DNA of 64,000 nucleotides, taken from positions 124,001-188,000 of the forward strand of contig WTFY01000002.1 in assembly GCA_011523795.1 (NCBI GenBank). The letters are read 5' to 3'. Made by a program: the position numbers and the translations under genes. Source of the stretch: Gammaproteobacteria bacterium. Lineage in GTDB: Bacteria; Pseudomonadota; Gammaproteobacteria; UBA4575. This document shows positions 8,348-51,905 of the stretch, piece after piece (the first letter of the stretch is position 1; every line of letters begins with the position of its first letter). A model generated the notes under the pieces. It did not search any database, had not been told where the DNA came from, and saw only the letters and a list, made by a program, of their open reading frames with translations.

Positions 8348-9022
8348 TCAGTCTTGTGAAAAAAGCCAATTCTTTAGTTCGAACACGTGTTCGATGACCA
8401 CATCGGCTCCCCATGTGAGAGGATCCTGGCCTTCCTGGATGTAGCCATACGCGGCCACAGCGGTATTCATGCCGGCAGCCTTTCCGGCCTCCACGTCACG
8501 CGGGTCATCCCCCACATACACGCAGTCTGTGCGGTCTGCACCGAGCAGTTCAGCACCCCGCAGGAGAGGCATCGGACTCGGTTTTCTTTCAGGGAGCGAA
8601 TCACCGCTGATGGTACAACCCGTCCGGGCGGCAAGGCCGAGCTTCTGTACCAGCGGTTCAGTAAGATGAGAGGGCTTGTTGGTCACGATTCCCCACGGAA
8701 GTCCGGCCTCGTCCAGACAATCCAGCAGGTGCGGCATACCTGGGAAAAGCCGGGTCTTGTCGTGCAGAAGGCCCGCATAGATCTGCAGGAATTCGTCGCG
8801 AAGACCCGAAAGCCTGCTTTCATCCATGGGTTCACTGAAACCCAGCCGGATCAGTGCAATGGCGCCCCGGGAAGTGTGCCGGCGTACACGGTCGTAATTT
8901 TCCCCGTCCCTGCCATGACGGGCCAGCAACTCGTTCAGCGCATCGGCCATGTCTGGTGCTGTGTGTGCGAGGGTCCCGTCCAGATCCAGCAGAACGGCCC
9001 GGACCCGTGTCATTCGGCGCAT
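8348..9022 (-). CDS. gph: Phosphoglycolate phosphatase (HAD family)
   Basis: A 224-residue HAD-superfamily phosphatase. Motif I is LLDLDGTLAHTAPDM with the nucleophile D13 and D15; motif II is WGIVTNKPS; the lysine and motif III/IV region is ERKPSPMPL followed by VYVGDDPRDVEAGKAAGM. The early cap with TAPDMADALNELL is typical for Gph. It removes 2-phosphoglycolate formed during DNA repair or oxygenase side reactions. It lies 16 bp downstream of ubiG, the classical ubiG-gph pair of gammaproteobacteria. Start ATG 9022; an alternative ATG lies three codons later. Confidence 0.92.
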   Translation of the reverse strand: MRRMTRVRAVLLDLDGTLAHTAPDMADALNELLARHGRDGENYDRVRRHTSRGAIALIRLGFSEPMDESRLSGLRDEFLQIYAGLLHDKTRLFPGMPHLLDCLDEAGLPWGIVTNKPSHLTEPLVQKLGLAARTGCTISGDSLPERKPSPMPLLRGAELLGADRTDCVYVGDDPRDVEAGKAAGMNTAVAAYGYIQEGQDPLTWGADVVIEHVFELKNWLFSQD

Positions 9023-9038
9023 GCCTTGACAGGTCCGC

Positions 9039-9740
9039 TCAGGGCCTGGAAGCGAACACGAGGTAGTTCACGCTCGGGTCAGATGACAGGCGGTAAACCT
9101 TGGTGATCGGGTTGTATTGCATGCCTGTGATCTCGGCGGTATGCAATCCGGCCTGGCGGATCCAGCGGTCGAGCTCGCCCGGGCGAATCAACTTCTCGTA
9201 CTGGTGGGTGCCTTTCGGCAACAGCCCGAGGACATATTCCGCCCCCACAATGGCGAACAGCAGTGACTTGGGACTCCGGTTGATGGTGGAAAAGAATGCA
9301 TGGCCTGCAGGCTTGAGCAGCCGGGTGCAGGCCTTGACGATGGCGGCCGGGTCCGGAACATGTTCCAGCATCTCGAGGCAGGTCACCACGTCGTACGATT
9401 CGGGTTCCTGGCCGGCAAGCTCTTCTGCGGAAATCAGCCGGTATTCGATTTCAAGCTGCTGCTCCTTCGCATGTAGCTGTGCAACAGCCAGTGAAGCCCG
9501 GCCCAGGTCGATCCCTGTCACCTCGGCGCCCTTGCGTGTCATGGCTTCGGTCAGGATGCCGCCACCGCAGCCGATGTCCAGGACTTTCTTGCCAGCCAGT
9601 TCCGCATGGGAGTCGATGAAATCCAGGCGCAGGGCGTTGATGTCATGCAGGGGTTTGAACTCACCCTCCCTGTCCCACCAGCGCTGTGCGAGCGCTTCGA
9701 ATTTTGCCAGTTCTTCTTTGTCGAGGTTCGGATTCGGCAT
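9039..9740 (-). CDS. ubiG: Ubiquinone biosynthesis O-methyltransferase
   Basis: Catalyses both O-methylations of the ubiquinone ring with S-adenosylmethionine. It begins MPNPNLDKEELAKFEALAQR and has the family's WWDREGEFKPLH segment, the SAM motif VLDIGCGGGILTE near residue 53 and MLEHVPDP near residue 125. The length of 233 residues fits. An in-frame ATG at 9800, one base after the mtaD stop, would add 20 residues and would couple it to mtaD; the shorter start agrees better with known UbiG N-termini, and neither has a clear Shine-Dalgarno. SAH released here is a substrate type for the neighbouring MtaD. Confidence 0.92.
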   Translation of the reverse strand: MPNPNLDKEELAKFEALAQRWWDREGEFKPLHDINALRLDFIDSHAELAGKKVLDIGCGGGILTEAMTRKGAEVTGIDLGRASLAVAQLHAKEQQLEIEYRLISAEELAGQEPESYDVVTCLEMLEHVPDPAAIVKACTRLLKPAGHAFFSTINRSPKSLLFAIVGAEYVLGLLPKGTHQYEKLIRPGELDRWIRQAGLHTAEITGMQYNPITKVYRLSSDPSVNYLVFASRP

Positions 9741-12486: not shown

Positions 12487-15045
12487 ATGGCTGCCATTGC
12501 CAAAGAAATCCTGTCAGTAAATCTCGAAGACGAGATGCGCCAGTCGTACCTCGATTATGCCATGAGCGTGATCGTCGGACGTGCCCTGCCGGACGTGCGG
12601 GATGGCCTGAAGCCGGTGCATCGCCGTGCCCTGCACGCCATGAATGAACTGGGCAATGACTGGAACAAGCCTTACAAGAAATCTGCCCGTGTGGTGGGGG
12701 ATGTCATCGGCAAGTACCATCCGCATGGTGAGTCGGCCGTTTACGACACCATCGTGCGAATGGCCCAGCCGTTTTCCATGCGCTACATGCTCATAAACGG
12801 TCAAGGCAATTTTGGTTCGGTCGACGGGGATGCGCCGGCCGCGATGCGCTACACGGAGGTGCGCATGGCCCGTATCACGCACGAGATCCTTGCGGACCTG
12901 GACAAGGAAACCGTGGATTTTGCACCGAACTACGACAATTCCGAGTCCGAGCCAACCGTGCTTCCGACCCGTGTTCCCAATCTGCTGGTCAACGGCTCAT
13001 CCGGCATTGCCGTGGGCATGGCGACGAATATCGCCCCGCATAACCTGACGGAAGTGATCAACGCGTGTATCGCACTGATTGAGGCGCCGGACATGGATTG
13101 CCAGGCCCTGATGCAGCATTTGCCGGGCCCTGATTTCCCGACCGCCGCCATCATCAATGGCAGGGAGGGTATCGTCGAGGCCTATCTCACGGGTCGCGGG
13201 CGCATCCATATGCGTGCCCGCACCCATATCGAACAGGATGCGCAGGGCGGGCGCGAGCGCATCGTTGTCACCGAGTTGCCATACCAGGTTAACAAGGCCA
13301 ACCTGGTCATGAAGATTGCCGAACTGGTCAAGGAAAAACGTCTGGACGGGATTGCGGCCAACGGGCTTCGCGATGAGTCAGACAAGGAAGGCATGCGCAT
13401 TGTCATCGAATTGCGCCGGGACGAAGTGAGCGGTGTGATTCTGAACAATCTGTTCAAGCATACAGCCATGCAGAGCGTGTTCAGCATGAACATGGTGGCG
13501 CTGGTCGATGGACAGCCGCGGTTGCTGAACCTGAAACAGATCCTGCAGGTCTTTATCCGGCACCGGCGTGACGTAGTCACGCGCCGCACGCTGTTCGAGC
13601 TGCGCAAGGCACGGGAACGGGTGCATATCCTGGAAGGCCTTGCCGTCGCTCTCACGAACATCGATGCAATCATTGCACTGATCAAGCAGTCCGCGAGCCC
13701 TGCAGTGGCCAAGGACCAGCTGGTCGAAATGCCCTGGCCGCCCGGAATCGTCACGGGGTTGCTGAAGCGCGCAGGGGCCGAGGTCTCGTGCCCGGAAGGC
13801 CTGGGGGATCAATTCGGCATGCAGGAGGAAGGGTACCGCCTGTCACCGATGCAGGCACAGGCGATACTGGATTTGCGGCTGCATCGTCTGACCAGCCTTG
13901 AGCAGGACAAGATTGTCAACGATTACAGCGAACTGCTTGACAGGATCATCGACCTGCTCGAGATCCTGCAGGATCCGGATCGACTCATGCGCGTCATTCG
14001 CAGTGAACTGGAAGCTATCCGGGATCAGTACGGTGACGATCGGAGAACGGAAATTTCCGATGAACAGGTGGCGCTTACCATGGAAGACCTGATCCAGGAC
14101 GAGGAAGTGGTGGTAACCTTGTCGCATGGCGGCTATGCCAAGTCACAGCCACTGGACACGTACAATTCGCAGCGGCGGGGCGGAAAGGGAAAGGCCGCCA
14201 CGTCGGTCAAGGCTGAGGATTTTGTTGACCGGCTGTTCGTTGCCAGCATGCATGACACCGTCCTGTGTTTTTCCAGCCGTGGCAAGGTGTACTGGCTCAA
14301 GGTCTACGAACTTCCACAAGCCGGTCGCACGGCACGCGGCAAGCCTATCGTCAACCTCCTGCCGTTGCAGGAAGGGGAGCGAATCAATGCCGTGTTGCCT
14401 GTCAGGGAATTTCAGGAAGATGCCTACGTCGTTATGGCAACCAGCAGCGGCACCGTCAAGAAAACCCGTCTGACCGCGTTTTCCCGGCCTCGGGCCGGTG
14501 GCATCATTGCGGTGGATCTGCGTGACAACGACTATCTTATTGATGTGGTGATGACACATGGAGACACCGAGCTTCTGATGGTCAGCGATGCAGGCAAAGC
14601 AATCCGTTTCAGTGAAAAGAGCGTTTCTGCCACGGGGCGCACCAGCCGGGGGGTGCGCGGAATCCGGCTGGACGAGGGACAGCGTGTCATAAGCCTGCTG
14701 AGCCTGAAGCCAGGCATGGGCGAGACCGAAATCCTGGTGGCCACTGAAAACGGGTATGGGAAACGCACCGGAATCGAGGAATACCCGGTGCATAATCGTG
14801 CCGGCAAGGGCGTGATCACCATCCAGACCGGGCCGCGCAACGGCAAGGTGATCGGTGCCATAGCGGTCTCTTGCGATGATGAAATCATGCTGATCACCAA
14901 CAGCGGGACCCTGGTACGCACGCCCGTTGGGGGGGTCTCCAGGACGAGACGCAACACCCAGGGTGTGAGACTGATCCGCCTGGCCGAAGAAGAACAGCTC
15001 GTGGAGGTCGAGAGGATCGAGAACCTGGCCGATGACACTGACTGA
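12487..15045 (+). CDS. gyrA: DNA gyrase subunit A
   Basis: The 852-residue breakage-reunion subunit of gyrase. The catalytic tyrosine is Y122 in [10 protein letters not shown]. The quinolone-determining region [16 protein letters not shown] keeps S83 and D87 (E. coli numbering applies directly), i.e. the wild-type susceptible state; residue 82 is Glu instead of Asp. The C-terminal pinwheel has the GyrA box QRRGGKG near residue 562, which marks a gyrase rather than topoisomerase IV. An AAGGGG stretch lies about 18 bp upstream of the ATG, somewhat far for a Shine-Dalgarno. gyrA-serC order is shared with Pseudomonas. Confidence 0.97.
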
Positions 15046-15138: not shown

Positions 15139-16239
15139 ATGCAGGACATCTTTTATTTTGGGGCCGGTCCTGCGACGTTGCCTCGCCCGGTGCTGGAGAA
15201 AATCAGGCGGGAGTTCTTGAACTGCCGGGGTACCGGGCTGTCCGTAATCGAGCTTCCTCACCGTGGAGAAGTTTTCTCTGGAATCAGGAAGGATGCTGAA
15301 TCCCTGCTGCGTGAACTGATGCAGATCCCGGAGGATTATGCGGTACTTTTCATGCATGGTGGGGCTACCGGCCAGTTTTCCATGCTGCCGCTTAATTTTC
15401 TTGGCTCTGGACGCAGTGCCGATTACGTGTGTACGGGGTACTGGTCTGCGAGAGCTGCCGAGGAGGCAAAAAGGCTGGCGGGGGTCCGGGAGATCCATGC
15501 CCTGCATGAAGAGGATGGCCTGTCCATTGCACCCGAACGGGAATGGAGCCTGGATCCGCAGGCTACTTACCTGCATTATTGCGACAACGAGACGGTCGAA
15601 GGGATCGCATTTCCGGGAATTCCCGACACGCCACGGGGTTCACTGGTATGCGACATGACCTCATCAGTACTTATGCGTCCCGTAGAGATCAGCAGGTTCG
15701 CGGTCCTCTACGCCGGTGCCCAGAAAAACCTCGGGATTGCAGGCCTGTGTGTCGTCATCATCAGGAAAGAATGGGTGGACCTCGTGAACGAGCAGGTCCC
15801 GCGGCTGAATGACTACCGGCGCTGTGCGCGGGAGCAATCCATGGTCAACACGCCCCCTGTATTTGCGATCTATGTGTTGCAGGTGCTTCTGGACTGGGTG
15901 AAGGGTCAGGGGGGGGTGCAGGTCATGCACGAAAGGAGTCTGCGTCGTGCCGGTATCCTTTACGGGGTGCTTGATTCAAGCCAGCTGTACAGGAACCGGG
16001 TCGTCAAAAAATTCCGCTCCAGGATCAATGTACCTTTTGAAATCAGGGGTAAGGGTTTGCAGGAGCTGTTCCTGGCCGAGGCAGGGCAAAACGGGCTGCA
16101 TGGCCTGCGCGGCCATCGAAGTGCAGGGGGAATCCGTGCCAGCCTGTACAATGCCATGCCGGATGCGGGCGTGGAACGCCTGGCGGAGTTCATGCGCGAT
16201 TTCGAGATCAGGCACCTGGACCGGCATGTGTCCGGGTGA
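15139..16239 (+). CDS. serC: Phosphoserine aminotransferase
   Basis: A 366-residue PLP class V aminotransferase that converts 3-phosphohydroxypyruvate to phosphoserine and also acts in pyridoxine synthesis. The N-terminal FGAGPATLPRPVLE motif, the FMHGGATGQF phosphate-binding loop (residues 71-80) and the PLP lysine in YAGAQKNLGI (K196; K198 in E. coli) are present, with DMTSSVLMRP upstream of it. It follows gyrA by 93 bp. In Pseudomonas serC is followed directly by pheA; here a three-gene cassette intervenes. pdxJ, the other vitamin B6 gene in this window, is at 50.8 kb. Confidence 0.96.
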   Translation: MQDIFYFGAGPATLPRPVLEKIRREFLNCRGTGLSVIELPHRGEVFSGIRKDAESLLRELMQIPEDYAVLFMHGGATGQFSMLPLNFLGSGRSADYVCTGYWSARAAEEAKRLAGVREIHALHEEDGLSIAPEREWSLDPQATYLHYCDNETVEGIAFPGIPDTPRGSLVCDMTSSVLMRPVEISRFAVLYAGAQKNLGIAGLCVVIIRKEWVDLVNEQVPRLNDYRRCAREQSMVNTPPVFAIYVLQVLLDWVKGQGGVQVMHERSLRRAGILYGVLDSSQLYRNRVVKKFRSRINVPFEIRGKGLQELFLAEAGQNGLHGLRGHRSAGGIRASLYNAMPDAGVERLAEFMRDFEIRHLDRHVSG

Positions 16240-16382: not shown

Positions 16383-16640
16383 ATGCCAACTATAGAACAG
16401 GTCCTGGCGGTACTGGCGAAGTCCGTGCCGATCCCGGAAGACATGGAGGCAATGGGTGAGCATGCACCGTTGCTGGGTGCCATTCCGGAGATGGATTCCC
16501 TGGCCATCACGAGCATCATCATGGACCTTGAGAAAACCTTTGGCATCGGGTTTGAAGCCGATGAACTGGATGCGCAGGTCTTCAACACGGTGGGGACCTT
16601 GCGTGACCTGATCGTCTTGAAAATGGCTGGCCATGCATGA
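16383..16640 (+). CDS. Acyl carrier protein, stand-alone (exosortase A-associated type)
   Basis: An 85-residue acidic carrier protein. The phosphopantetheine attachment site is the Ser of EMDSLAITS (S39), followed by the conserved helix II/III pattern IIMDLEKTFGIGFEADEL. It is clearly different from the fatty-acid ACP (no DSLDTVELVM) and resembles carriers found with exosortase A gene clusters. It is 143 bp downstream of serC on the same strand and convergent with the decarboxylase gene (28-bp gap). The neighbouring ligase and decarboxylase suggest that it carries an amino or hydroxy acid. Likely activated by a holo-ACP synthase such as the one at 51.5 kb. Confidence 0.85.
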   Translation: MPTIEQVLAVLAKSVPIPEDMEAMGEHAPLLGAIPEMDSLAITSIIMDLEKTFGIGFEADELDAQVFNTVGTLRDLIVLKMAGHA

Positions 16641-16668
16641 TCCGGGTTCTCCCGGCCCCGGCAGCAGT

Positions 16669-17904
16669 TCAGACCAGGATTTCTGACGGTTCCGGATGGC
16701 TCAGGAAATTGAGTGGGCTGGCCGTATAGCCGTACGCACCGGATTGAAACACCACGACCAGGTCACCAATGTCCGCCTTGGGAAGATCCATGTCCTTGGC
16801 GAGGATGTCGAGGGATGTGCACAGGGGCCCTACAACCGATACATTTTCTGTGCGCTCCCCGATACGGTTGCCAATGGTTACCGGGTAATTCCTGCGAATG
16901 GCCTGTCCGAAGTTCCCGCTGGCGGCAAGATGGTGATGAAGCCCGCCGTCACACACCAGGTAGAGGGTGCCCCTTGAAATCTTCCTGTCCGTGATGCGCA
17001 TCACGTACAGTCCGGCTTCGCCAACCAGGTAGCGCCCGAGTTCGAGAACGATTTCGGTACGGGCAAACTTCTCATGGTACCGCTCAAGCAGGGTCTTCAG
17101 GTTTTCCATGACCGGCCGGACCTCGAGGGGGGTGTCACCGGGGAAGTACGGTATACCGAATCCACCCCCGATATTGAGTCTCCTTACCGGCATGCCGGCA
17201 TGCACGGAAAGCTGGCCAGCCAGCGCGAAGGTTTTTTCCTGGACCTCGATGATCGTTTCAGCCCGCAGGGTCTGCGACCCGCTGAATATGTGGAACCCCA
17301 TGAAGTGCATGCCCGATGCCGCGATCTTTTCCAGCAGAGTCGGAGCCGTCTCCGCATCCACTCCAAAAGGCTGCGGGCCCCCTGAAACCTTGATACCCGA
17401 GGCCCTGAGTTCGAAATCCGGGTTGATGCGCAGTGCCACGTTTGCAGTTCGGCCGGTGGTGCGGCTGATTTCAGCAATCCTTGCAAATTCTGTATCCGAT
17501 TCCACATTCAGGGTGATCCCGGCTGCTATGGCATCTGCAAGTTCCTGCTCCGATTTACCGGGTCCTGCAAAACTGATATCAGCCGAAGGCATGCCGCTTC
17601 GCAGGGCGGTGCTCAGTTCCCGGCCCGATGCGACATCCAGCCCGTCCACATTCTGTGCAATGAGGTCGACCACCGCCTGCATCGGGTTCGCCTTGACCGC
17701 ATAATGCAGCCTGACCCCGGTCGGCAGCAGCTTGCGCAGTTCCCGGATGCGATTCCGAATGATGTCCCGGCTGTACAGGTACAGGGGAGTCTTGCCGCAT
17801 TGCGCGACGATGTCCACCAGCCTTGTGCCACCGATCACCAGGTGCGGGCCGTCGACGGCAAAAGGTCCCTGCAGGCTGTAGTGGCGGAGCTCAGTCGTGT
17901 TCAT
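16669..17904 (-). CDS. PLP-dependent decarboxylase, LysA fold, exosortase A-associated type
   Basis: A 411-residue fold-type III decarboxylase related to diaminopimelate and ornithine decarboxylases. The PLP lysine is K71 in LHYAVKANP. HIFSGSQ replaces the HIGSQ of true LysA, GGGFGIPYFP is the phosphate-binding loop, and C362 in VVGPLCTSLD is the active-site cysteine. The HIFSGSQ form is typical of the TIGR03099-type proteins annotated in exosortase A systems, a name I give from memory. It also resembles BtrK, which decarboxylates glutamyl-ACP. Start ATG 17904 lies inside the ligase stop region, a 14-bp overlap implying coupled translation. Substrate not known. Confidence 0.85.
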   Translation of the reverse strand: MNTTELRHYSLQGPFAVDGPHLVIGGTRLVDIVAQCGKTPLYLYSRDIIRNRIRELRKLLPTGVRLHYAVKANPMQAVVDLIAQNVDGLDVASGRELSTALRSGMPSADISFAGPGKSEQELADAIAAGITLNVESDTEFARIAEISRTTGRTANVALRINPDFELRASGIKVSGGPQPFGVDAETAPTLLEKIAASGMHFMGFHIFSGSQTLRAETIIEVQEKTFALAGQLSVHAGMPVRRLNIGGGFGIPYFPGDTPLEVRPVMENLKTLLERYHEKFARTEIVLELGRYLVGEAGLYVMRITDRKISRGTLYLVCDGGLHHHLAASGNFGQAIRRNYPVTIGNRIGERTENVSVVGPLCTSLDILAKDMDLPKADIGDLVVVFQSGAYGYTASPLNFLSHPEPSEILV

Positions 17905-19504
17905 CTTGCGGTTCTGGCAAACACATTGAATGGTAGCGGGCCGACAGTTCCTTGCGGTCGATCTTGCCATGCGTATTACGCGGGATCTCGTTCATGCGGA
18001 GGTACCGGACCGGCAGCATGTAAAACGGTAGAACCGTCTTCAGGTACCGTTCCAGTTCCTTTTCCGTTTTTTCCGGATCCTGGTCGGTCGTGTACACCAG
18101 GCATACGGCCTGACCGCGGTCAGGATGTGCCACACCGAAGGCCACGGCTTCCCTCACCGAATGGTACATGCCTGCAGGCTCTTCGATCTCACACGGGCTG
18201 ATACGATACCCTGACGTCTTGATCATGTCATCCTTGCGCCCGACGAAATAGAGGTACCCGTCCTGGTCCTGCCTGACCAGATCTCCAGACCAGACTTCGC
18301 AGCCGTTCATGTCCTGACCGTTGCCCGGGCCGCTGTGCAGTGGTCTGAACCGTTCGGCGGTCTTGTCTGGATCATTCCAGTAGCCCTGGGCGACCAGTGG
18401 CCCCCTGTGTACCAGTTCTCCCACTTCACCTGGCTGGCACAGCGATCCATCCTCGTGCACGATCCGGATTTCCGCGTGGGGTATGGGCTTTCCGATCGAT
18501 GCAGGTCGGCGCAGGACCTCATCCGGAGGCAGATAGGTAGACCGGAACGCTTCGGTCAGTCCGTACATCAGGTAAATGTCCGAACCGGGAAGTTTCTTTG
18601 CAAGCTTCCGGACGGTGGCCTCGGGCAGGATGTCTCCCGAGCTGGTGATGTAGCGGAGTGTCTTTTGAACCTTTGCGGGCCATTCGAGCCGGACGAGTTG
18701 TTGCCAGAGCGACGGCACGGCAGCCAGTCCGGTGATCCGGCCCATTTCCAGAGCTTTCATGACATCTTTTGGCAGCAGATAATCGTGCAGTACCAAGGTT
18801 GCGCCGACGCAGAAGGCGGTGGTCAGCTGGCTGAAGCCGTAATCGAAGCTGAAGGGCAGTACGGACAGGATCCGGTCATTTGCAGTGTTCCCGAGGTAGG
18901 CTGCCACGCTTTGTGCACCCATGCGCAGGTTCCTGTGGTTCAGTACAACACCCTTCGGTTTTCCCGTGCTTCCGGAAGTGTAGAATATGGCTGCTAGACC
19001 GGTTTCAGGGAGGTCGCCGGCAGGCGGACCAGGTTTTGAACAGAACGACTGCCAGCGATCTACCCTCAGGGCAGGTGGCAGGTTTTCAGGGAGTCCCGGC
19101 ACCGTGTCAGTCAGAACGACATGACGCAGAGAATCACAGTGTTGCAAGGTATCCCGCAAGGCCACCAGTCTGTGTGAAGTGGTGACCAGCAGCTCAATTT
19201 CGCAGTCTTTCAGGATATGACTCACCTGGAGGCTTTTAAGCGCCGGGTGCACCGGCACCATGCATCCGCCACAGCCAAGGGTTCCGAAAGATGCGGTAAC
19301 GGCCTCTACGCATTTTGGGAGGTAAATTCCGACGCGGGTTCCACGGTCCAGGCCAGCTAGGAAATACCCCCCTGCAAAATGCCTGCATGCCGCCTCAAGT
19401 GCGCGGTAAGTGGTCACGTCTTCACGGTGCTCGAGTGCCACGTTTTCAGGGTGCCTGCAAGCCTGCTCAGTGATGAATGAGAATACGGAAGATGGCATGG
19501 GCAC
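17891..19504 (-). CDS. Acyl/aminoacyl-AMP ligase, exosortase A-associated type
   Basis: A 537-residue ANL-superfamily enzyme that should adenylate a carboxylic acid and pass it to CoA or a carrier thiol. Motifs in order: the P-loop FYTSGSTGKPKGVV near residue 173, YLMYGLTEA near 322, SGDLVRQDQDGYLYFVGRKDD near 400 and the catalytic lysine in THGKIDRK (K514). It matches the ligase family annotated next to exosortase A loci. Cotranscribed with the decarboxylase, and opposite in strand to the ACP. GTG 19504 has GGGAA 7 bp upstream; ATG 19498 is the alternative. Whether it loads the nearby ACP is inference from position. Confidence 0.85.
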   Translation of the reverse strand: MPMPSSVFSFITEQACRHPENVALEHREDVTTYRALEAACRHFAGGYFLAGLDRGTRVGIYLPKCVEAVTASFGTLGCGGCMVPVHPALKSLQVSHILKDCEIELLVTTSHRLVALRDTLQHCDSLRHVVLTDTVPGLPENLPPALRVDRWQSFCSKPGPPAGDLPETGLAAIFYTSGSTGKPKGVVLNHRNLRMGAQSVAAYLGNTANDRILSVLPFSFDYGFSQLTTAFCVGATLVLHDYLLPKDVMKALEMGRITGLAAVPSLWQQLVRLEWPAKVQKTLRYITSSGDILPEATVRKLAKKLPGSDIYLMYGLTEAFRSTYLPPDEVLRRPASIGKPIPHAEIRIVHEDGSLCQPGEVGELVHRGPLVAQGYWNDPDKTAERFRPLHSGPGNGQDMNGCEVWSGDLVRQDQDGYLYFVGRKDDMIKTSGYRISPCEIEEPAGMYHSVREAVAFGVAHPDRGQAVCLVYTTDQDPEKTEKELERYLKTVLPFYMLPVRYLRMNEIPRNTHGKIDRKELSARYHSMCLPEPQDEHD

Positions 19505-19731
19505 AGTCTATTCCCGAATTCTTGCACAAGACAAGCCACTTGATCAGGATAGGCGGTCAGATCAACAACAGGGATGGTACATTTCCTGAAGGGATGGTCA
19601 AAACCTGGAGATTTTCAAACCTGTGAGATGGATTCTTGCTAAGATTCCACCCTGGTTCGACCTTCGTGTTTCGATGAGTATCGGGTTTTGGCACTTGAGA
19701 ATTCAATTCACAGCTCTTGCACCGCTTGCAG

Positions 19732-20811
19732 ATGAACGAGGAACTTGAGTCATTACGTCAGCAGATCGATGACGTAGACCGCGCGTTGCTGGACCTGATC
19801 AATGACCGGGCAAACCTGGCGCTTCGGATAGCACAAGTCAAGGCACGCTCCGGCAAGGGCGGGACGTTTTACAGGCCTGACAGGGAAGCGAACGTGCTCA
19901 ATAGAGTTCTCAAGCACAACCAGGGACCGTTGTCAGATGAAGAGGTGGCACGCCTGGTACGCGAGGTCATGTCCGCCTGCCTGGCACTGGAACAGGTTCT
20001 GAACATTGCGTTTCTCGGGCCTTCCGGCACGTTCACGGAAGAGGCCGCGCACAAGCATTTCGGCCGGTCTATCTGCACGGTAGCCGCGGATTCCATCGAC
20101 GACGTGTTCCGGGAGGTCGAGTCGGACAATGCTGACTACGGCGTGGTGCCGATCGAAAACTCGACGCAGGGCATCGTCAACAGCACGCTTGACATGTTCA
20201 TGGAGTCGACGCTCAAGATCGTCGGTGAAGTCGAACTCAGGATACATCAGCATTTGCTGACTCATGCGACCGATTTGTCCGGAATTGAAGTGCTGTACTC
20301 GCATCTTCAGTCGATCGCCCAGTGCAAGAGGTGGCTGGGTGACAACCTTCCTGGAGTTGAACGTATTCCGGTTACCAGCAATGCGGATGCCGCAAGGCGG
20401 GCCAGTGGCGAACCGCGGGCCGCAGCCATCGCAAGTGAGGATGCAGCCGTGAAATACCAGCTTCCGGTTTTGAAAAAGAACATCCAGGACTCGCCTGGCA
20501 ATACCACCCGTTTCCTGGTCATTGGCAAGCAGGAAACCGCACCTACCGGGTCCGACAAGACTACGCTGCTGGTGTCCACGCACAACAAGTCGGGAGCCCT
20601 GTACAGCTTGCTGCAGCCGCTCGCTCAGAACAATGTCAGCATGACGCGCATCGAGTCCAGGCCCTCACACTGCATCAACTGGGATTATGTTTTTTTCCTG
20701 GACCTGGATGGCCATGTCGAGAACCCGACGGTCCGGGCCTCGATCGAGGAACTTCGCGCGGAAGCCGGACTGCTCAAGGTCCTGGGATCCTATCCCAAGG
20801 CTGTACTCTGA
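19732..20811 (+). CDS. pheA: Chorismate mutase / prephenate dehydratase (P-protein)
   Basis: A bifunctional enzyme of phenylalanine synthesis. Residues 1-90 are an AroQ-type chorismate mutase (LRQQIDDVDRALLDLINDRA). Residues 95-270 are prephenate dehydratase (FLGPSGTFTEEAA and the NTTRFLVIG motif with catalytic Thr). The C-terminal ACT domain carries ESRPSHCINWDYVFFLD, the phenylalanine-binding ESRP motif, so feedback inhibition is likely. I chose ATG 19732 (359 residues) over an in-frame TTG 15 bp upstream; neither has a strong ribosome-binding site. It heads the pheA-tyrA-aroA-cmk-rpsA run and is divergent from the ligase. Confidence 0.95.
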   Translation: MNEELESLRQQIDDVDRALLDLINDRANLALRIAQVKARSGKGGTFYRPDREANVLNRVLKHNQGPLSDEEVARLVREVMSACLALEQVLNIAFLGPSGTFTEEAAHKHFGRSICTVAADSIDDVFREVESDNADYGVVPIENSTQGIVNSTLDMFMESTLKIVGEVELRIHQHLLTHATDLSGIEVLYSHLQSIAQCKRWLGDNLPGVERIPVTSNADAARRASGEPRAAAIASEDAAVKYQLPVLKKNIQDSPGNTTRFLVIGKQETAPTGSDKTTLLVSTHNKSGALYSLLQPLAQNNVSMTRIESRPSHCINWDYVFFLDLDGHVENPTVRASIEELRAEAGLLKVLGSYPKAVL

Positions 20812-32563: not shown

Positions 32564-33529
32564 ATGCCACCTTCAAAACCGCTTCATCTGTGTGTTCTTG
32601 TCTTCAGTATATTTGTTTTGACGGACGCACGTGCCGACTTCTATGCAGGCGCTGATGTCGGCCTGGGAGATGTACGAACCTTGGGCTCAAGTGTTACCGG
32701 GCAAAGTAACCCGACGCGGTGCGATGTGCTTATGTACAGCGATGTGACCCGTCCATCCGGTGCGATCGCCAGGGATCCCGCCTGCGGGGATGTTGACCCG
32801 AAGGGAAAATGGAGTTCCCGGTTTGATGCCGGAAGCGGTCTGGCAGCGGGTCTGCAAGCAGGCTATGTTCATGACCGGGTGCGCTTCGAGCTGGAATTCA
32901 TGCATGTCGAGCCCGGCTCAGCGAGTTACCCCATCATTACTGCCTCGACGCATCCGGGTCTGGCAAGCAAGGACCGCGAGTGGAGCGAGACTGCACCTCC
33001 CTATGAATGGATCTCGGGTTTACGCATTCAGCAGTACTTCGCCAACGTATTCTATGATTTTGCACCAGGGTTCAGGTGGACACCGTACGCAGGCCTGGGA
33101 GCCGGATGGGCCCGTATTCGGATGCAGTACAAACGCAGGCTCCTGCGCAAGACGGAGGGTGAGGGTTATCTGGGTGTGGCGCCGGACATTCCGGAGATGC
33201 AGCGAGGGTACGGCTGGAATGAGGACTCATGGCTTGAGTGGCGGGGAAATGCGGCAGGCACGCTGAGTTCCATGGACACCGAACTGTCTGACACGTTGTT
33301 CGGGTTTCAGCTGCTCGCTGGTGTGGACTACGCCTTGACCAGTCAAACCTCTGTCGGCATGAAGGCACGATGGGTACGGTTCGACGATTTTAGAGACCGT
33401 GCTCCCTATGCCCAGATCCGAAGCCATGAGCCGGTACATGTTGACGGGGTTACCCCTTTCGTGGATCAGGTTAGAATGGATAACATTGAATACTGGGCGG
33501 TAACCGTTGGTTTCAAGCGCCGTTTCTGA
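32564..33529 (+). CDS. Outer-membrane beta-barrel protein of unknown role
   Basis: A 321-residue protein with a signal peptide (hydrophobic LCVLVFSIFVL, cleavage probably after DARA at about residue 24). The mature protein opens with DFYAGADVGLGDV, the first strand of an OmpA/OmpW/P44-like barrel. Alternating strands such as FANVFYDFAPGFRWTPYAGLGAGW and TLFGFQLLAGVDYALTSQTSVGMKARW follow, and the final strand ends in Phe (TVGFKRRF), the BAM recognition signal. Two cysteines (about residues 54 and 74) in the first long loop may form a disulfide. No specific family assigned. It has its own promoter. Confidence 0.8.
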   Translation: MPPSKPLHLCVLVFSIFVLTDARADFYAGADVGLGDVRTLGSSVTGQSNPTRCDVLMYSDVTRPSGAIARDPACGDVDPKGKWSSRFDAGSGLAAGLQAGYVHDRVRFELEFMHVEPGSASYPIITASTHPGLASKDREWSETAPPYEWISGLRIQQYFANVFYDFAPGFRWTPYAGLGAGWARIRMQYKRRLLRKTEGEGYLGVAPDIPEMQRGYGWNEDSWLEWRGNAAGTLSSMDTELSDTLFGFQLLAGVDYALTSQTSVGMKARWVRFDDFRDRAPYAQIRSHEPVHVDGVTPFVDQVRMDNIEYWAVTVGFKRRF

Positions 33530-34394: not shown

Positions 34395-34420
34395 ATTTTT
34401 AAAACAGAAAGAGATTGGGT

Positions 34421-35911
34421 ATGACGGGAAAAACAGGAAGCAAGACAGAAACACGGTCCGCTTCAGCCAAGAGGAGTGGATCCTGTGGTGACCTCCAGAT
34501 GGCCCCCGAACTCATGATGGAGCTTGCATGCAAGGCGGCAGAGCTTGTCGTGGAACGAATCAATAGGCTGCACGGAGAAGATGCCTGGGAGGGAGAGTTC
34601 AGGCAGGAACTGGAGGACCGGTTGATGGGGGATCCACCCGAAGCCGGCCGACCGGCAATGGAGGTCCTCGAGCAGGCTGCACGCGAAATCCTTCCGGTTT
34701 CCTTGCGGCTGGACCATCCACGTTCGTTCGCATTCATTCCGACTTCACCCACCTGGCCCGGTGTGCTGGCAGACTTCATGACTTCCGGGTTCAACGTGAA
34801 CGCGTGTACCTGGCTGGTAGCCAGTGGGCCGAGTCAACTGGAACTGGTGGTCATCGACTGGTTTCGGCGCTGGCTGGGATATCCGGAGGGTGCGGGCGGG
34901 CTTTTGACTAGCGGGGGTTCGGCAGCCAGCATCAATGCCCTGGTGGCGGCGCGTGAACAGGCAGGCAATCCTGAACAGGCCACCGTGTATATGAGTGACC
35001 AGGGTCACAGTGTGAACATCCGCGCTGCAAGGATTATCGGTATTCGCCCCAAGCATATACGCATGGTTCCATGCGATGGGCATTTTCGCCTTGACATGGA
35101 GGCCTTGGTGCGCGCCGTGGCGGAGGATCGTGCCCAGGGGTTGAATCCCATCGCAGTGTGCGCCAATGCCGGGACATCCAGCACCGGGGCCGTTGACCCA
35201 CTTGAAAAGATGGCAGAATTCTGCGAGGCGGAAGGCATCTGGCTGCATGTCGATGCAGCATACGGGGGTTTTGCGATTGTGACCGATCAGGGCAGGAAGC
35301 TTTTGCGCGGCATCGAGCATGCCGATTCGGTGGGCTTGGACGCTCACAAGTGGTTCTTCCAGCCGTACGAGGCTGGCGGTCTATTGGTGAAGGACGTGCG
35401 CACCCTGGAGCGTGCTTTCGCAGTGCGTCCCGACGTGCTTCAGGATACGATCTGGGGCGCGGATCACCCGAACCTTTCGGACCGCGGCCTGCAATTGAGC
35501 CGTTCCTTTCGGGCCCTGAAAATCTGGATGTCCGTACAGACCTTCGGAATGGCCGCGTTCCGCCGTGCCGTATCGAAAGGAATGGAGCTGGCCGCACGGG
35601 CCGGGGAGTATGTCAGCGAACACCCGATGCTGGAACTGTTGAGCCCTGTGTCGCTGGGCATCGTGTGCTTCCGGGTCAATCCTGCGGATTCAGGACTTGG
35701 CGAAGACACCCTGGAAAACACCAACCGGGCTGTCCTCACCCACATATTCTGGGATAACCGTGCACTGATATCCTCCACAACGCTCGGGGGAAAGTTTTCG
35801 CTGCGAATGTGTATCCTCAACCACGCAACGACCTGGGACGACGTGAAGGAGACCCTGGAAGCCATCGCGGGGTTCGGGGAAGAAGCGGTATCAAACTTGG
35901 CACATACCTGA
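34421..35911 (+). CDS. Group II PLP-dependent amino acid decarboxylase
   Basis: A 496-residue fold-type I enzyme of the aromatic amino acid/glutamate decarboxylase group. DHPRSFAFIPTSP (residues 99-111) is the N-terminal substrate-loop motif, SDQGHSVNI holds the PLP-stacking His (H196), WLHVDAAYGG holds the pyridine-nitrogen Asp (D278), and the PLP lysine is K310 in LDAHKWFFQPYEAGG. Substrate could be an aromatic amino acid, diaminobutyrate or another; the sequence alone does not say. The first 25 residues are low-complexity and probably not part of the fold. It stands alone beside the LuxR stump and tRNA-Asn. Confidence 0.88.
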   Translation: MTGKTGSKTETRSASAKRSGSCGDLQMAPELMMELACKAAELVVERINRLHGEDAWEGEFRQELEDRLMGDPPEAGRPAMEVLEQAAREILPVSLRLDHPRSFAFIPTSPTWPGVLADFMTSGFNVNACTWLVASGPSQLELVVIDWFRRWLGYPEGAGGLLTSGGSAASINALVAAREQAGNPEQATVYMSDQGHSVNIRAARIIGIRPKHIRMVPCDGHFRLDMEALVRAVAEDRAQGLNPIAVCANAGTSSTGAVDPLEKMAEFCEAEGIWLHVDAAYGGFAIVTDQGRKLLRGIEHADSVGLDAHKWFFQPYEAGGLLVKDVRTLERAFAVRPDVLQDTIWGADHPNLSDRGLQLSRSFRALKIWMSVQTFGMAAFRRAVSKGMELAARAGEYVSEHPMLELLSPVSLGIVCFRVNPADSGLGEDTLENTNRAVLTHIFWDNRALISSTTLGGKFSLRMCILNHATTWDDVKETLEAIAGFGEEAVSNLAHT

Positions 35912-49137: not shown

Positions 49138-50022
49138 ATGTCTGACGATCCGAAGTGTGGTTTCGTGAGCATCGTCGGTCGCGCCAATGTGGGCAAGTCG
49201 ACATTGTTCAACAAGCTGCTGGGCGACCAGTTGTCGGTGGCCACGTACAAGCCACACACCACGCGGCACAACATAAGGGGTATCCTGACACTGGAACGGT
49301 GCCAGCTGGTCCTGATAGATACCCCGGGGATACAACTGGGAAACCGCAGGCTGATGAACAGGGTACTGCTCAGCAATGCTTTGTCCTCGTTGCAGGAAGT
49401 GGACGTGATCCTGATGCTGGTCGAGCCGGACACCTGGAACCACGAAGATGAATACCTGCTTGGGCATGTCCGCCAGGCACAAAGGCCGGTCGTGCTGATG
49501 ATCAACAAGGTGGACAGGGTCAGGAACAAGTCTACGCTCCTGCCGTTGATCGACAGGCTGAAGTCACAACACGCCTTCAGCAGTATCGTTCCTTTTTCCG
49601 CCCTGTACGACCGGGAGGTGACCGGGCTGGTAGAGGAGTTGTGCGCCTTTTGCCCGGTCTCGGATTTCCTGTTTCCTGCCGATATGAAGTGGGACCGGGA
49701 TGACCGTTTCGTCATCTCGGAAGTGGTGCGCGCAGCAGCGATGACGCTGCTGCAAAAAGAATTGCCCTATGCCCTGTACACGGAGGTTGAGCAGCTTGAA
49801 TTCCAGGACAAGCTGGTTACGGCCACGGTCATCCTGTGGGTTGAGAAGGACAGTCAGAAACCTATTGTGATCGGGAGAAGGGGGTCAAAACTGAAGGAGA
49901 TCGGTGAACATGCACGCCTGAGGCTCGAACGGGTCTTCAACAGGAAAGTCATGTTGCGCACATGGGTCAAGGTGAACAAGAACTGGCAGGACCAGCAGGG
50001 AATCGTATCCCAGTTCAGGTGA
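49138..50022 (+). CDS. era: GTPase Era
   Basis: A 294-residue GTPase needed for 16S rRNA maturation. G1 is GRANVGKSTLFNKL (about residues 14-27), G2 TTRHNIRGI, G3 DTPGIQ and G4 INKVDR. The C-terminal KH domain has PIVIGRRGSKLKEIG. Follows rnc by 10 bp and precedes recO by 23 bp, the classical rnc-era-recO order. Confidence 0.96.
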   Translation: MSDDPKCGFVSIVGRANVGKSTLFNKLLGDQLSVATYKPHTTRHNIRGILTLERCQLVLIDTPGIQLGNRRLMNRVLLSNALSSLQEVDVILMLVEPDTWNHEDEYLLGHVRQAQRPVVLMINKVDRVRNKSTLLPLIDRLKSQHAFSSIVPFSALYDREVTGLVEELCAFCPVSDFLFPADMKWDRDDRFVISEVVRAAAMTLLQKELPYALYTEVEQLEFQDKLVTATVILWVEKDSQKPIVIGRRGSKLKEIGEHARLRLERVFNRKVMLRTWVKVNKNWQDQQGIVSQFR

Positions 50023-50044
50023 AGGCAAGCGGGCGGAATCGAGA

Positions 50045-50749
50045 GTGAAAGTGCTGTTGCAACCAGCCTACTGCATGCACGCGAGGCCTTTTCGCGAATC
50101 GAGCCATATTGCCGAAATGCTGACACCCGAATACGGACTGGTATCCTGTGTGCACAGGGGTTCGAGAAGGCGCGCCGGTTCTGCAAAATTGCTGTTCACG
50201 CCCATGCTGATTTCCTGGAGTGGGCGCGGTGAGCTGTATACCCTGACACATGCCGAGGCGGATGGCCATTCGCACATTGTCTCGCCGGATGCCTGTATCG
50301 TCGGCATGTATCTGAACGAGCTGGTCTTGAGGCTGATTCCTAAATCCAGTCCGAGCAGAGAGATTTTCGACCTGTACAGGAGTGTCGTGACCGCACTCGG
50401 CGACAGCATGCAAAGACGTGCTAAGCTGTTGCGCCTTTTTGAGGTCGAGTTGCTCGAACTGACCGGGCACGGGCTTTTCCTGGACAAGGAAGCGGACCAT
50501 GAGACCGAGATACAGTGTGAAGGACTCTATCAGTATGATGTGGATGCAGGTGCCGTCCGGGTACATCGCGCAAGCAGTGCATGGAATGTGGTCAGTGGGG
50601 CGGCACTGATTGCACTGCGGTCTCCCTTGGCCATGGATCCGGCCTGCCTCGACGAGACGAAAAGGTTCATGCGCGGTGTGTTGAGTTGTCACGTGGGAAG
50701 CCGGCCCTTGCGGAGCCGGGAAATACTGCAATTCATGCAGGCGCCCTGA
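50045..50749 (+). CDS. recO: DNA repair protein RecO
   Basis: A 234-residue RecO. The N-terminal OB-fold begins VLLQPAYCMHARPFRESSHIAEMLTPEYG, followed by the helical domain ELVLRLIPKSSPSREIFDLYRSV. It loads RecA on SSB-coated gaps together with RecR. No zinc-binding cysteines, as in gammaproteobacterial RecO. GTG start; SD GAGAG. Confidence 0.93.
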   Translation: MKVLLQPAYCMHARPFRESSHIAEMLTPEYGLVSCVHRGSRRRAGSAKLLFTPMLISWSGRGELYTLTHAEADGHSHIVSPDACIVGMYLNELVLRLIPKSSPSREIFDLYRSVVTALGDSMQRRAKLLRLFEVELLELTGHGLFLDKEADHETEIQCEGLYQYDVDAGAVRVHRASSAWNVVSGAALIALRSPLAMDPACLDETKRFMRGVLSCHVGSRPLRSREILQFMQAP

Positions 50750-50782
50750 GCGGGTGAAATCTGAACAGGCTTGGAGTCTACA

Positions 50783-51517
50783 ATGAATGCTGAATCCGGA
50801 ATACGACTGGGTGTGAACCTTGATCATGTCCTGACGATCCGCCAGGCGCGGGGTACGGACTATCCTGACTTCGAACAGGCGATAGCAGCAGTTGAACGTG
50901 CCGGTGCGGACGGTATCACGATGCACTTGCGCGAAGACCGCCGCCACGTCCAGGATGAAGATGTATATCTTGCAAGGCGCGTGATCCGGACCAGCATGAA
51001 CCTTGAGATGGCAGCTACCGACGAGATGCGTGACATCGCCCTGGAAGTAAGGCCCCAGAACTGTTGCATCGTGCCTGAAAAGCGGATGGAATTGACCACG
51101 GAAGGTGGTCTCGATGTGATTGCGCACCAGGCGAGAATCAGCGATCTTGTCGCTGCACTGAAAGATGCCGGCATCGCCGTGTCTCTCTTTATAGAGCCTG
51201 ACGAGAAGGTCGTCGATGCCGCGGCCCGCTCCGGTGCCGCGGTGATCGAACTGCATACGGGGGTGTATGCCGAAGCCCGGGGTGAGGCACAGGGAAGGGA
51301 GCTTGACAGGATCCGCGCGGCGGCCCGGCATGCGGCTTCGCTGGGCCTGGTCGTGAATGCAGGGCACGGGCTGCACTGTGGTAATGTGCTGTCGATAGCC
51401 AGGGTCGAAAACATGCACGAACTGAACATCGGCCACTCGATCGTTGCCGATGGACTGTTCGTGGGTCTGGAGGAAGCGACAAGAAGAATGAAAGCTGCCA
51501 TGCATGCGGAAATCTGA
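50783..51517 (+). CDS. pdxJ: Pyridoxine 5'-phosphate synthase
   Basis: A 244-residue TIM barrel that condenses 3-amino-2-oxopropyl phosphate with deoxyxylulose phosphate. LGVNLDHVLTIRQARGT (residues 8-24), GITMHLREDRRHVQDEDV (about 43-60) and the NAGHGLHCGN phosphate-binding loop near 193 are diagnostic. ATG 50783 has GGAG at suitable distance; a TTG 12 bp upstream is less likely. acpS begins one base after its stop. Confidence 0.95.
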   Translation: MNAESGIRLGVNLDHVLTIRQARGTDYPDFEQAIAAVERAGADGITMHLREDRRHVQDEDVYLARRVIRTSMNLEMAATDEMRDIALEVRPQNCCIVPEKRMELTTEGGLDVIAHQARISDLVAALKDAGIAVSLFIEPDEKVVDAAARSGAAVIELHTGVYAEARGEAQGRELDRIRAAARHAASLGLVVNAGHGLHCGNVLSIARVENMHELNIGHSIVADGLFVGLEEATRRMKAAMHAEI

Positions 51518-51518
51518 T

Positions 51519-51905
51519 ATGCAGTTGATTGGTGCAGGCGTGGATATCGTGGACAATCGGCGTATACACAGGATCTACAGCCGCTATTCGCGGGCATTTT
51601 CGAGTAGAATCCTGCATGTTGACGAACTGGCTGAGTTTTCTGGAAAACGTGACAAGACAAGGTACCTGGCGAGCCGTTTTTCGGTCAAGGAGGCCATTGC
51701 CAAGGCATTCGGAACAGGTCTTCGGGGCCAGATGTCTTGGGGAAACATATGCGTTACCTCAGACTCCCTTGGCAGGCCTGTGGCCAGATTTGAAACTCCC
51801 TTGCTGGCCCAGGTCGGCATGGATGAACTGGAAGTGGCGGTAAGCATTTCCCATGAGAAACACTATACGATCGCCTATGCGATCGCTTTTGGAAAGCATG
51901 TATGA
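51519..51905 (+). CDS. acpS: Holo-[acyl carrier protein] synthase
   Basis: A 128-residue AcpS that transfers 4'-phosphopantetheine from CoA to carrier proteins. GAGVDIVDNRRI (with the metal-binding Asp) and RFSVKEAIAKAFGTG (with the second metal-binding Glu and the CoA lysine) are the two family motifs. Start ATG 51519 matches MQLIGAGVDIV; an upstream ATG 51504 would overlap pdxJ by 14 bp. The stop overlaps the cysM start by 4 bp. It could modify the orphan ACP at 16.4 kb as well as fatty-acid ACP. Confidence 0.93.
   Translation: MQLIGAGVDIVDNRRIHRIYSRYSRAFSSRILHVDELAEFSGKRDKTRYLASRFSVKEAIAKAFGTGLRGQMSWGNICVTSDSLGRPVARFETPLLAQVGMDELEVAVSISHEKHYTIAYAIAFGKHV

Follow-up and report, generated by a model that had tools for sequence, protein, structure and literature searches.

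A stretch of 64,000 nucleotides from a Gammaproteobacteria bacterium of the UBA4575 lineage (GenBank assembly GCA_011523795.1, contig WTFY01000002.1, positions 124,001 to 188,000; called the window below) carries three neighboring genes for a stand-alone acyl carrier protein (ACP), a fold type III pyridoxal 5'-phosphate (PLP) decarboxylase and an AMP-forming ligase. We propose that this trio probably makes a carrier-bound omega-amino acid, L-aspartate being loaded through its side chain and converted to beta-alanyl-ACP. Both enzymes are members of TIGR03098 and TIGR03099, two families classed as 'hypothetical equivalogs' that accompany exosortase A (XrtA), and in this genome the trio stands outside any exosortase A system. 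An earlier note on the same DNA had suggested that the ligase charges the ACP with an amino acid and that the decarboxylase acts on the tethered residue to give an aminoacyl-ACP building block. The family scores support this proposal as a prediction, which we narrow to a dicarboxylic amino acid loaded through its side chain, with aspartate favored.

The decarboxylase scored 579.4 bits against TIGR03099 (dCO2ase_PEP1, curated cut-off 478.45) and 260 bits against the LysA model TIGR01048, below its cut-off of 297.9. Its best match by sequence in the PDB is BtrK from butirosin biosynthesis (260 bits; best LysA 175), an enzyme whose substrate is glutamyl-BtrI. The predicted fold (model pLDDT 89) is also closest to BtrK (Z 42.2, 35% identity), and the PLCTP and HHH stretches are common to both proteins. 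The chain has the PLP-binding Lys71 and the catalytic Cys362, both present as noted earlier when counting from the ATG at 17904, and also Tyr391. Cys362 is followed by the non-acidic Thr363, and Cys-Thr occurs in every family member as well as in BtrK and SbnH, whereas LysA has Cys-Glu. In the LysA line this Glu contacts the unconjugated substrate at its distal end. A tree separated LysA from TIGR03099, BtrK and SbnH with 100/100 support; only this split was used, as the BtrK and SbnH branches are long and their placing inside the family clade is untrustworthy. The same genome encodes a separate LysA with the motifs CES and HIGSQ (C9:44586-45743). The score, the Thr363 change and the separate LysA led us to reject decarboxylation of free diaminopimelate, and the nearness to BtrK in sequence and fold speaks for the carrier-tethered decarboxylation proposed earlier. 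The alanine-racemase fold and the Cys-Thr in place of Cys-Glu are shared with further LysA-derived enzymes that decarboxylate conjugated amino acids, among them SbnH of the staphyloferrin B pathway, but SbnH acts on citryl-diaminopropionate and uses no ACP.

The ligase scored 656.2 bits against TIGR03098 (ligase_PEP_1, curated cut-off 592.35) and fell short of the cut-offs in the general models for acyl-CoA ligases. Its motifs are intact (YTSGSTGKPKG, YGLTE, SGD and K514), and its pocket is lined by Asp221, Tyr222, Thr287, Ser289 and Arg321. When the pocket fragment was used as query, VinN from vicenistatin biosynthesis (3wvn/3wv4) was the top match in the whole PDB (3e-15), followed by CmiS6. 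The alignment with VinN is ungapped across the pocket code: Asp221, Tyr222, Ser289 and Arg321 correspond to VinN Asp230, Phe231, Ser299 and Arg331, so that the bulky residue at position 231 is kept as well, and the beta13-beta14 loop is shortened as in VinN. Both Asp221 and Arg321 were invariant across the 87 ligases examined. The features of the VinN pocket, including the role of Asp230 in holding the amino group, are described in PMC11253843. CmiS6 is a beta-amino acid enzyme that activates 3-aminononanoic acid and has no second carboxylate to bind (PMC11284099); it carries Ala at the position of Arg321/Arg331. From the Arg shared with VinN and the Ala of CmiS6 we deduce that the free alpha-carboxylate would be bound by Arg321 and the side-chain carboxyl adenylated. 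This VinN-type pocket backs the loading of an amino acid onto the ACP.

The ACP scored 24.2 bits against PF00550 (cut-off 20.8), and the serine of its DSL motif, Ser39, is conserved in 58 of 58 family ACPs. Its nearest solved chain is 2lki, an unnamed structural-genomics protein (profile E 1.8e-19), and next come 5czd and 8k4r, which we take to be VinL entries. Family scores, residue conservation and synteny together exclude chance or an annotation artefact as the origin of the trio.

The proposed sequence of events would thus resemble the first steps of vicenistatin starter unit synthesis, and also what BtrJ, BtrI and BtrK do with glutamate for the butirosin side chain. The ligase would take a dicarboxylic amino acid, L-aspartate being the likeliest, adenylate it at the side-chain carboxyl and then transfer the aminoacyl group to the phosphopantetheine of the dedicated ACP, with Asp221 and Arg321 holding the free alpha-amino and alpha-carboxyl groups. 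The PLP decarboxylase would next act on the tethered residue and remove its alpha-carboxyl, so that beta-aspartyl-S-ACP becomes beta-alanyl-S-ACP, and the amino building block would be handed from the ACP to an acceptor. For VinN, VinL and VinO this order, loading followed by decarboxylation on the carrier, is documented. Together with FlvN of fluvirucin biosynthesis they provide the parallel of a stand-alone adenylation enzyme, loading of an acidic amino acid through the side-chain carboxyl, a stand-alone ACP and PLP-dependent decarboxylation while the residue is on the carrier; here, unlike there, neither a polyketide synthase nor VinM/VinK partners were found. The vicenistatin enzymes use 3-methylaspartate. 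This substrate is disfavored for the trio and L-aspartate preferred, because no glutamate mutase E subunit is encoded in the genome.

Several observations weigh against this assignment. VinN Lys330 is replaced by Phe320, which is conserved in the 87 ligases, and the equivalents of positions 239 and 278 differ from VinN as well. In a whole-chain search, adenylation domains of nonribosomal peptide synthetases (LgrA) outscored VinN, which came after them. In the fold comparison VinN ranked near the top (Z 45.2), and its sequence identity of 30% was the highest among the matches listed, but several acyl-CoA ligases were level with it on Z, so that the fold alone decides nothing for the ligase. The part given to Arg331 in binding a free carboxylate is our own reading of the alignment. 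The ACP and the two enzymes are encoded on opposite strands, and in some Kangiellaceae loci that contain ligase and decarboxylase an ACP is missing from the surrounding 10 kb. Neither a gene for the following step in the genome nor an acceptor-side partner in the window's genus was identified, although acceptor-side enzymes were not sought systematically.

The 87 ligases fall into two pocket classes. The first (Tyr222/Thr287/Ser289/Ala261, n = 50) includes the window ligase and is mostly gammaproteobacterial, the second (Ala222/Ala287/Thr289/Thr261, n = 37) mostly beta- and alphaproteobacterial. When the proteins were split on position 222, the next three best separating columns of the whole protein were 289, 287 and 261, which are GrsA specificity-code positions 301, 299 and 278 (the last from our own alignment); the classes thereby differ at code positions 236, 278, 299 and 301. 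With shared ancestry left aside, the probability that three such columns would by chance fall on the nine code positions left is about 3 in a million. The class label requires two changes on a quick tree of the ligases. This pattern suggests that the two classes take two substrates. On the same tree, one ligase with the Ala222 pocket groups with the other class, presumably the sole gammaproteobacterial one (L139, a Haliea metagenome-assembled genome (MAG)).

There is some chance, though a clearly smaller one, that the same chemistry runs on a longer substrate, be it L-glutamate, giving gamma-aminobutyryl-ACP (GABA-ACP) as in butirosin synthesis, or a different amino acid with two carboxyl groups, for instance diaminopimelate. 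The closest characterized decarboxylase, BtrK, works in the glutamate-using BtrJ/BtrI/BtrK system, and a second ligase class (Ala222/Thr289) exists within the same family. The window ligase, however, has the Tyr222/Ser289 pocket, and the bulky residues of this class agree with those of VinN, a binder of 3-methylaspartate and L-aspartate; for this class aspartate and not glutamate is predicted, and no aminoglycoside genes are present here. An unlikely alternative is that the ligase has ordinary acyl-CoA or fatty acid ligase activity and that the decarboxylase, unconnected with the ACP, takes an amino acid that is free or of low molecular weight. Such a division of labor would fit the name of the TIGR03098 family (acyl-CoA ligase), a fold common to many acyl-CoA ligases and the position of the ACP on the other strand, but it is at odds with the sub-threshold scores of both enzymes against the LysA and general acyl-CoA ligase models, with the Glu-to-Thr change in the decarboxylase and with the equivalent of the amino-acid-type Asp235, which is invariant in the ligases.

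The gene neighborhood argues against such a separation, too. A survey of named genomes covered 80 other loci. Ligase and decarboxylase occur together in 78 of them, and in about 68 of these the ligase lies directly upstream on the same strand. The ACP family of the trio lies within 10 kb of the decarboxylase in 47 of the 80 loci and, as here, on the opposite strand in 38 of the 47. This arrangement is far beyond chance. In the surveyed loci the ACP usually adjoins hydrolases 2 and 1, and an AsnB-like amidotransferase is found nearby in 24. An exosortase above cut-off was detected in 43 of 50 such genomes, the isolates Kangiella aquimarina and Pleionea sediminis being among those where it was not. 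In four loci from Kangiella, Pleionea and a Kangiellaceae MAG (L081, L089, L096 and L137) the ligase-decarboxylase pair runs straight into a gene of 820-850 aa, labeled plsB-like by its appearance and not by a family-library search, with gaps of 15-25 bp in three of the four; no ACP was within reach, and three of these four genomes had no exosortase above cut-off.

Genes associated with exosortase A (XrtA/PEP-CTERM) include TIGR03098, TIGR03099, TIGR03100, TIGR03101 and TIGR03108. The earlier note's remark that both enzymes resemble companion families of exosortase A was confirmed by the scores above, and in many XrtA genomes the same ACP adjoins hydrolases 2 and 1. In contrast, XrtA, hydrolase 1 and FemAB are absent from the genome and genus of the window: neither TIGR03109 nor PF09721 matched in its genome (97% complete) or in four genus relatives, and hydrolase 1 (TIGR03100) and FemAB (TIGR03019) were found nowhere in the genus. 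The bacterial family was sampled with 19 genomes, five of them of this genus. The ligase is present in 13 of the 19, always in the slot between serC and pheA where the flanks are covered, while XrtA occurs in five, hydrolase 1 in four and FemAB in three (0/5 in the genus for each). In one sister genome (G009) the trio is surrounded by genes for hydrolases 1 and 2, an amidotransferase, an O-glycosylation ligase homologue and XrtA-type glycosyltransferases. Another sister genome, the complete G011, has lost XrtA and retains an intact trio; hydrolase 2 and 1 fragments lie between its ACP and decarboxylase genes, and fragments of wecB and a neighboring gene between ligase and pheA. The XrtA-type glycan locus thus decays while the trio stays. 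Locus L046 captures this decay in progress, with fragments of hydrolase 2, hydrolase 1, wecB and a neighboring gene around an intact trio (8978-9344 and 12520-12830).

This decay, with XrtA, hydrolase 1 and FemAB gone from the genus and fragments left in G011 at the same slot, could be taken to mean that the trio itself no longer has a function and is a remnant of an exosortase A or exopolysaccharide locus that was lost. We consider this very improbable, since all three frames are open in the five genus genomes, the catalytic residues are intact and the ratios of nonsynonymous to synonymous substitution (dN/dS) within the genus show purifying selection (decarboxylase 0.13-0.17, ligase 0.15-0.20, ACP 0.24-0.32, as compared to 0.13-0.16 for serC). 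Together with the decay of the surrounding glycan genes, these values indicate that the trio is kept and works without exosortase A. With XrtA, hydrolase 1 and FemAB gone, the surface glycan that the earlier note had considered as destination of the product is not simply transferable to this genus, where the acceptor would be something else. For genomes with XrtA, aminoacylation of a surface glycan or protein is plausible, and the nearby alpha/beta hydrolases, the amidotransferase or FemAB could be involved.

The absence of the aspartate decarboxylase PanD (PF02261) from all 19 family genomes, 18 of which have PanC, raised another explanation, in which coenzyme A synthesis draws its free beta-alanine from the trio, beta-alanyl-ACP being the predicted product. 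This appears distinctly improbable and was demoted to a weak rival as the main role: six PanD-less genomes also lack the ligase, so another source of beta-alanine must exist; no thioesterase accompanies the trio here, and in XrtA-rich relatives the trio is retained alongside glycan genes. A candidate for the alternative lies in the window itself at 34415-35911 (+), a group II PLP decarboxylase (PF00282) that scored below the cut-offs of PanP and of the diaminobutyrate decarboxylase RhbB and is a possible aspartate decarboxylase. The panB-panC neighborhood (G000:C7; L158 9234-10881) contained no alternative decarboxylase.

Beyond this genome, we tentatively put forward that TIGR03098, TIGR03099 and the ACP form a widespread proteobacterial system for carrier-bound omega-amino acids. 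Its two ligase classes might select two acidic amino acids (e.g. aspartate for beta-alanyl-ACP and glutamate for GABA-ACP), and the products might aminoacylate XrtA-linked surface glycans or proteins as well as another acceptor, independent of exosortase, through which selection would maintain the trio in the window's genus, perhaps also in Kangiella and Pleionea; this wider picture is possible rather than likely. We found no paper on TIGR03098/TIGR03099, or on exosortase A together with an ACP and a decarboxylase, that assigns them a chemistry. In many environmental proteobacteria the two families turn up repeatedly beside exosortase A. The residue evidence now yields a concrete and quickly testable prediction for them, the conversion of aspartate to beta-alanyl-ACP. 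The loss of XrtA provides a natural experiment that separates the trio from protein sorting. If correct, the prediction would add an omega-aminoacyl modification to the exosortase and exopolysaccharide field and would mean that carrier-bound amino acid decarboxylation is not confined to antibiotic clusters but belongs to the general surface or primary chemistry of proteobacteria.

The features of the locus are collected in Table 1. The three genes are adjacent, as described before, but the ACP gene is convergent with the two enzyme genes across a gap of 28 bp and not co-directional with them, so that the three do not form one operon. The overlap of 14 bp between ligase and decarboxylase was found as previously reported, and translational coupling of the two through it is likely. 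Of the extent given earlier for the set, 16383-19504, the right-hand end probably needs correction: ligase relatives align at Met3, which corresponds to the ATG at 19498 and makes this start likelier than the GTG at 19504. Ligase residues are numbered here from the GTG. Decarboxylase relatives align at the Met of the ATG at 17904.

Table 1. The predicted trio and the borders of its insertion slot; coordinates are those of the window.
Feature	Coordinates	Strand	Remarks and basis
serC, left boundary of insertion slot, outside the trio	15139..16239	+	family score, as for pheA; slot conserved across the bacterial family
ACP, stand-alone carrier	16383..16640	+	85 aa; phosphopantetheine Ser39 in MDSL; PF00550
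Fold type III PLP decarboxylase, BtrK kind	16669..17904	-	411 aa from ATG 17904, stop at 16669; TIGR03099
14-bp overlap between the ligase (3' end) and the decarboxylase (5' end)	17891..17904	-	sequence
Predicted stand-alone AMP-forming amino acid-ACP ligase	17891..19498	-	535 aa from ATG 19498 (or GTG 19504); TIGR03098
pheA (chorismate mutase / prephenate dehydratase), right boundary of slot, outside the trio	19717..20811	+	

Elsewhere in the window, two open frames of 321 and 513 aa (32564-33529, + strand, and 50015-51556, - strand) had no Pfam match, and either may be spurious. At four of the loci (L050 5152-6378, L051 4993-6225, L052 6402-7631 and L053 9391-10620) a divergent TIGR03099 decarboxylase occurs with neither ligase nor ACP. 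In L050 and L051 it occupies the serC-pheA slot and adjoins tviB- and tviC-like nucleotide-sugar genes, in L053 it lies elsewhere, and it may act on a different conjugate.

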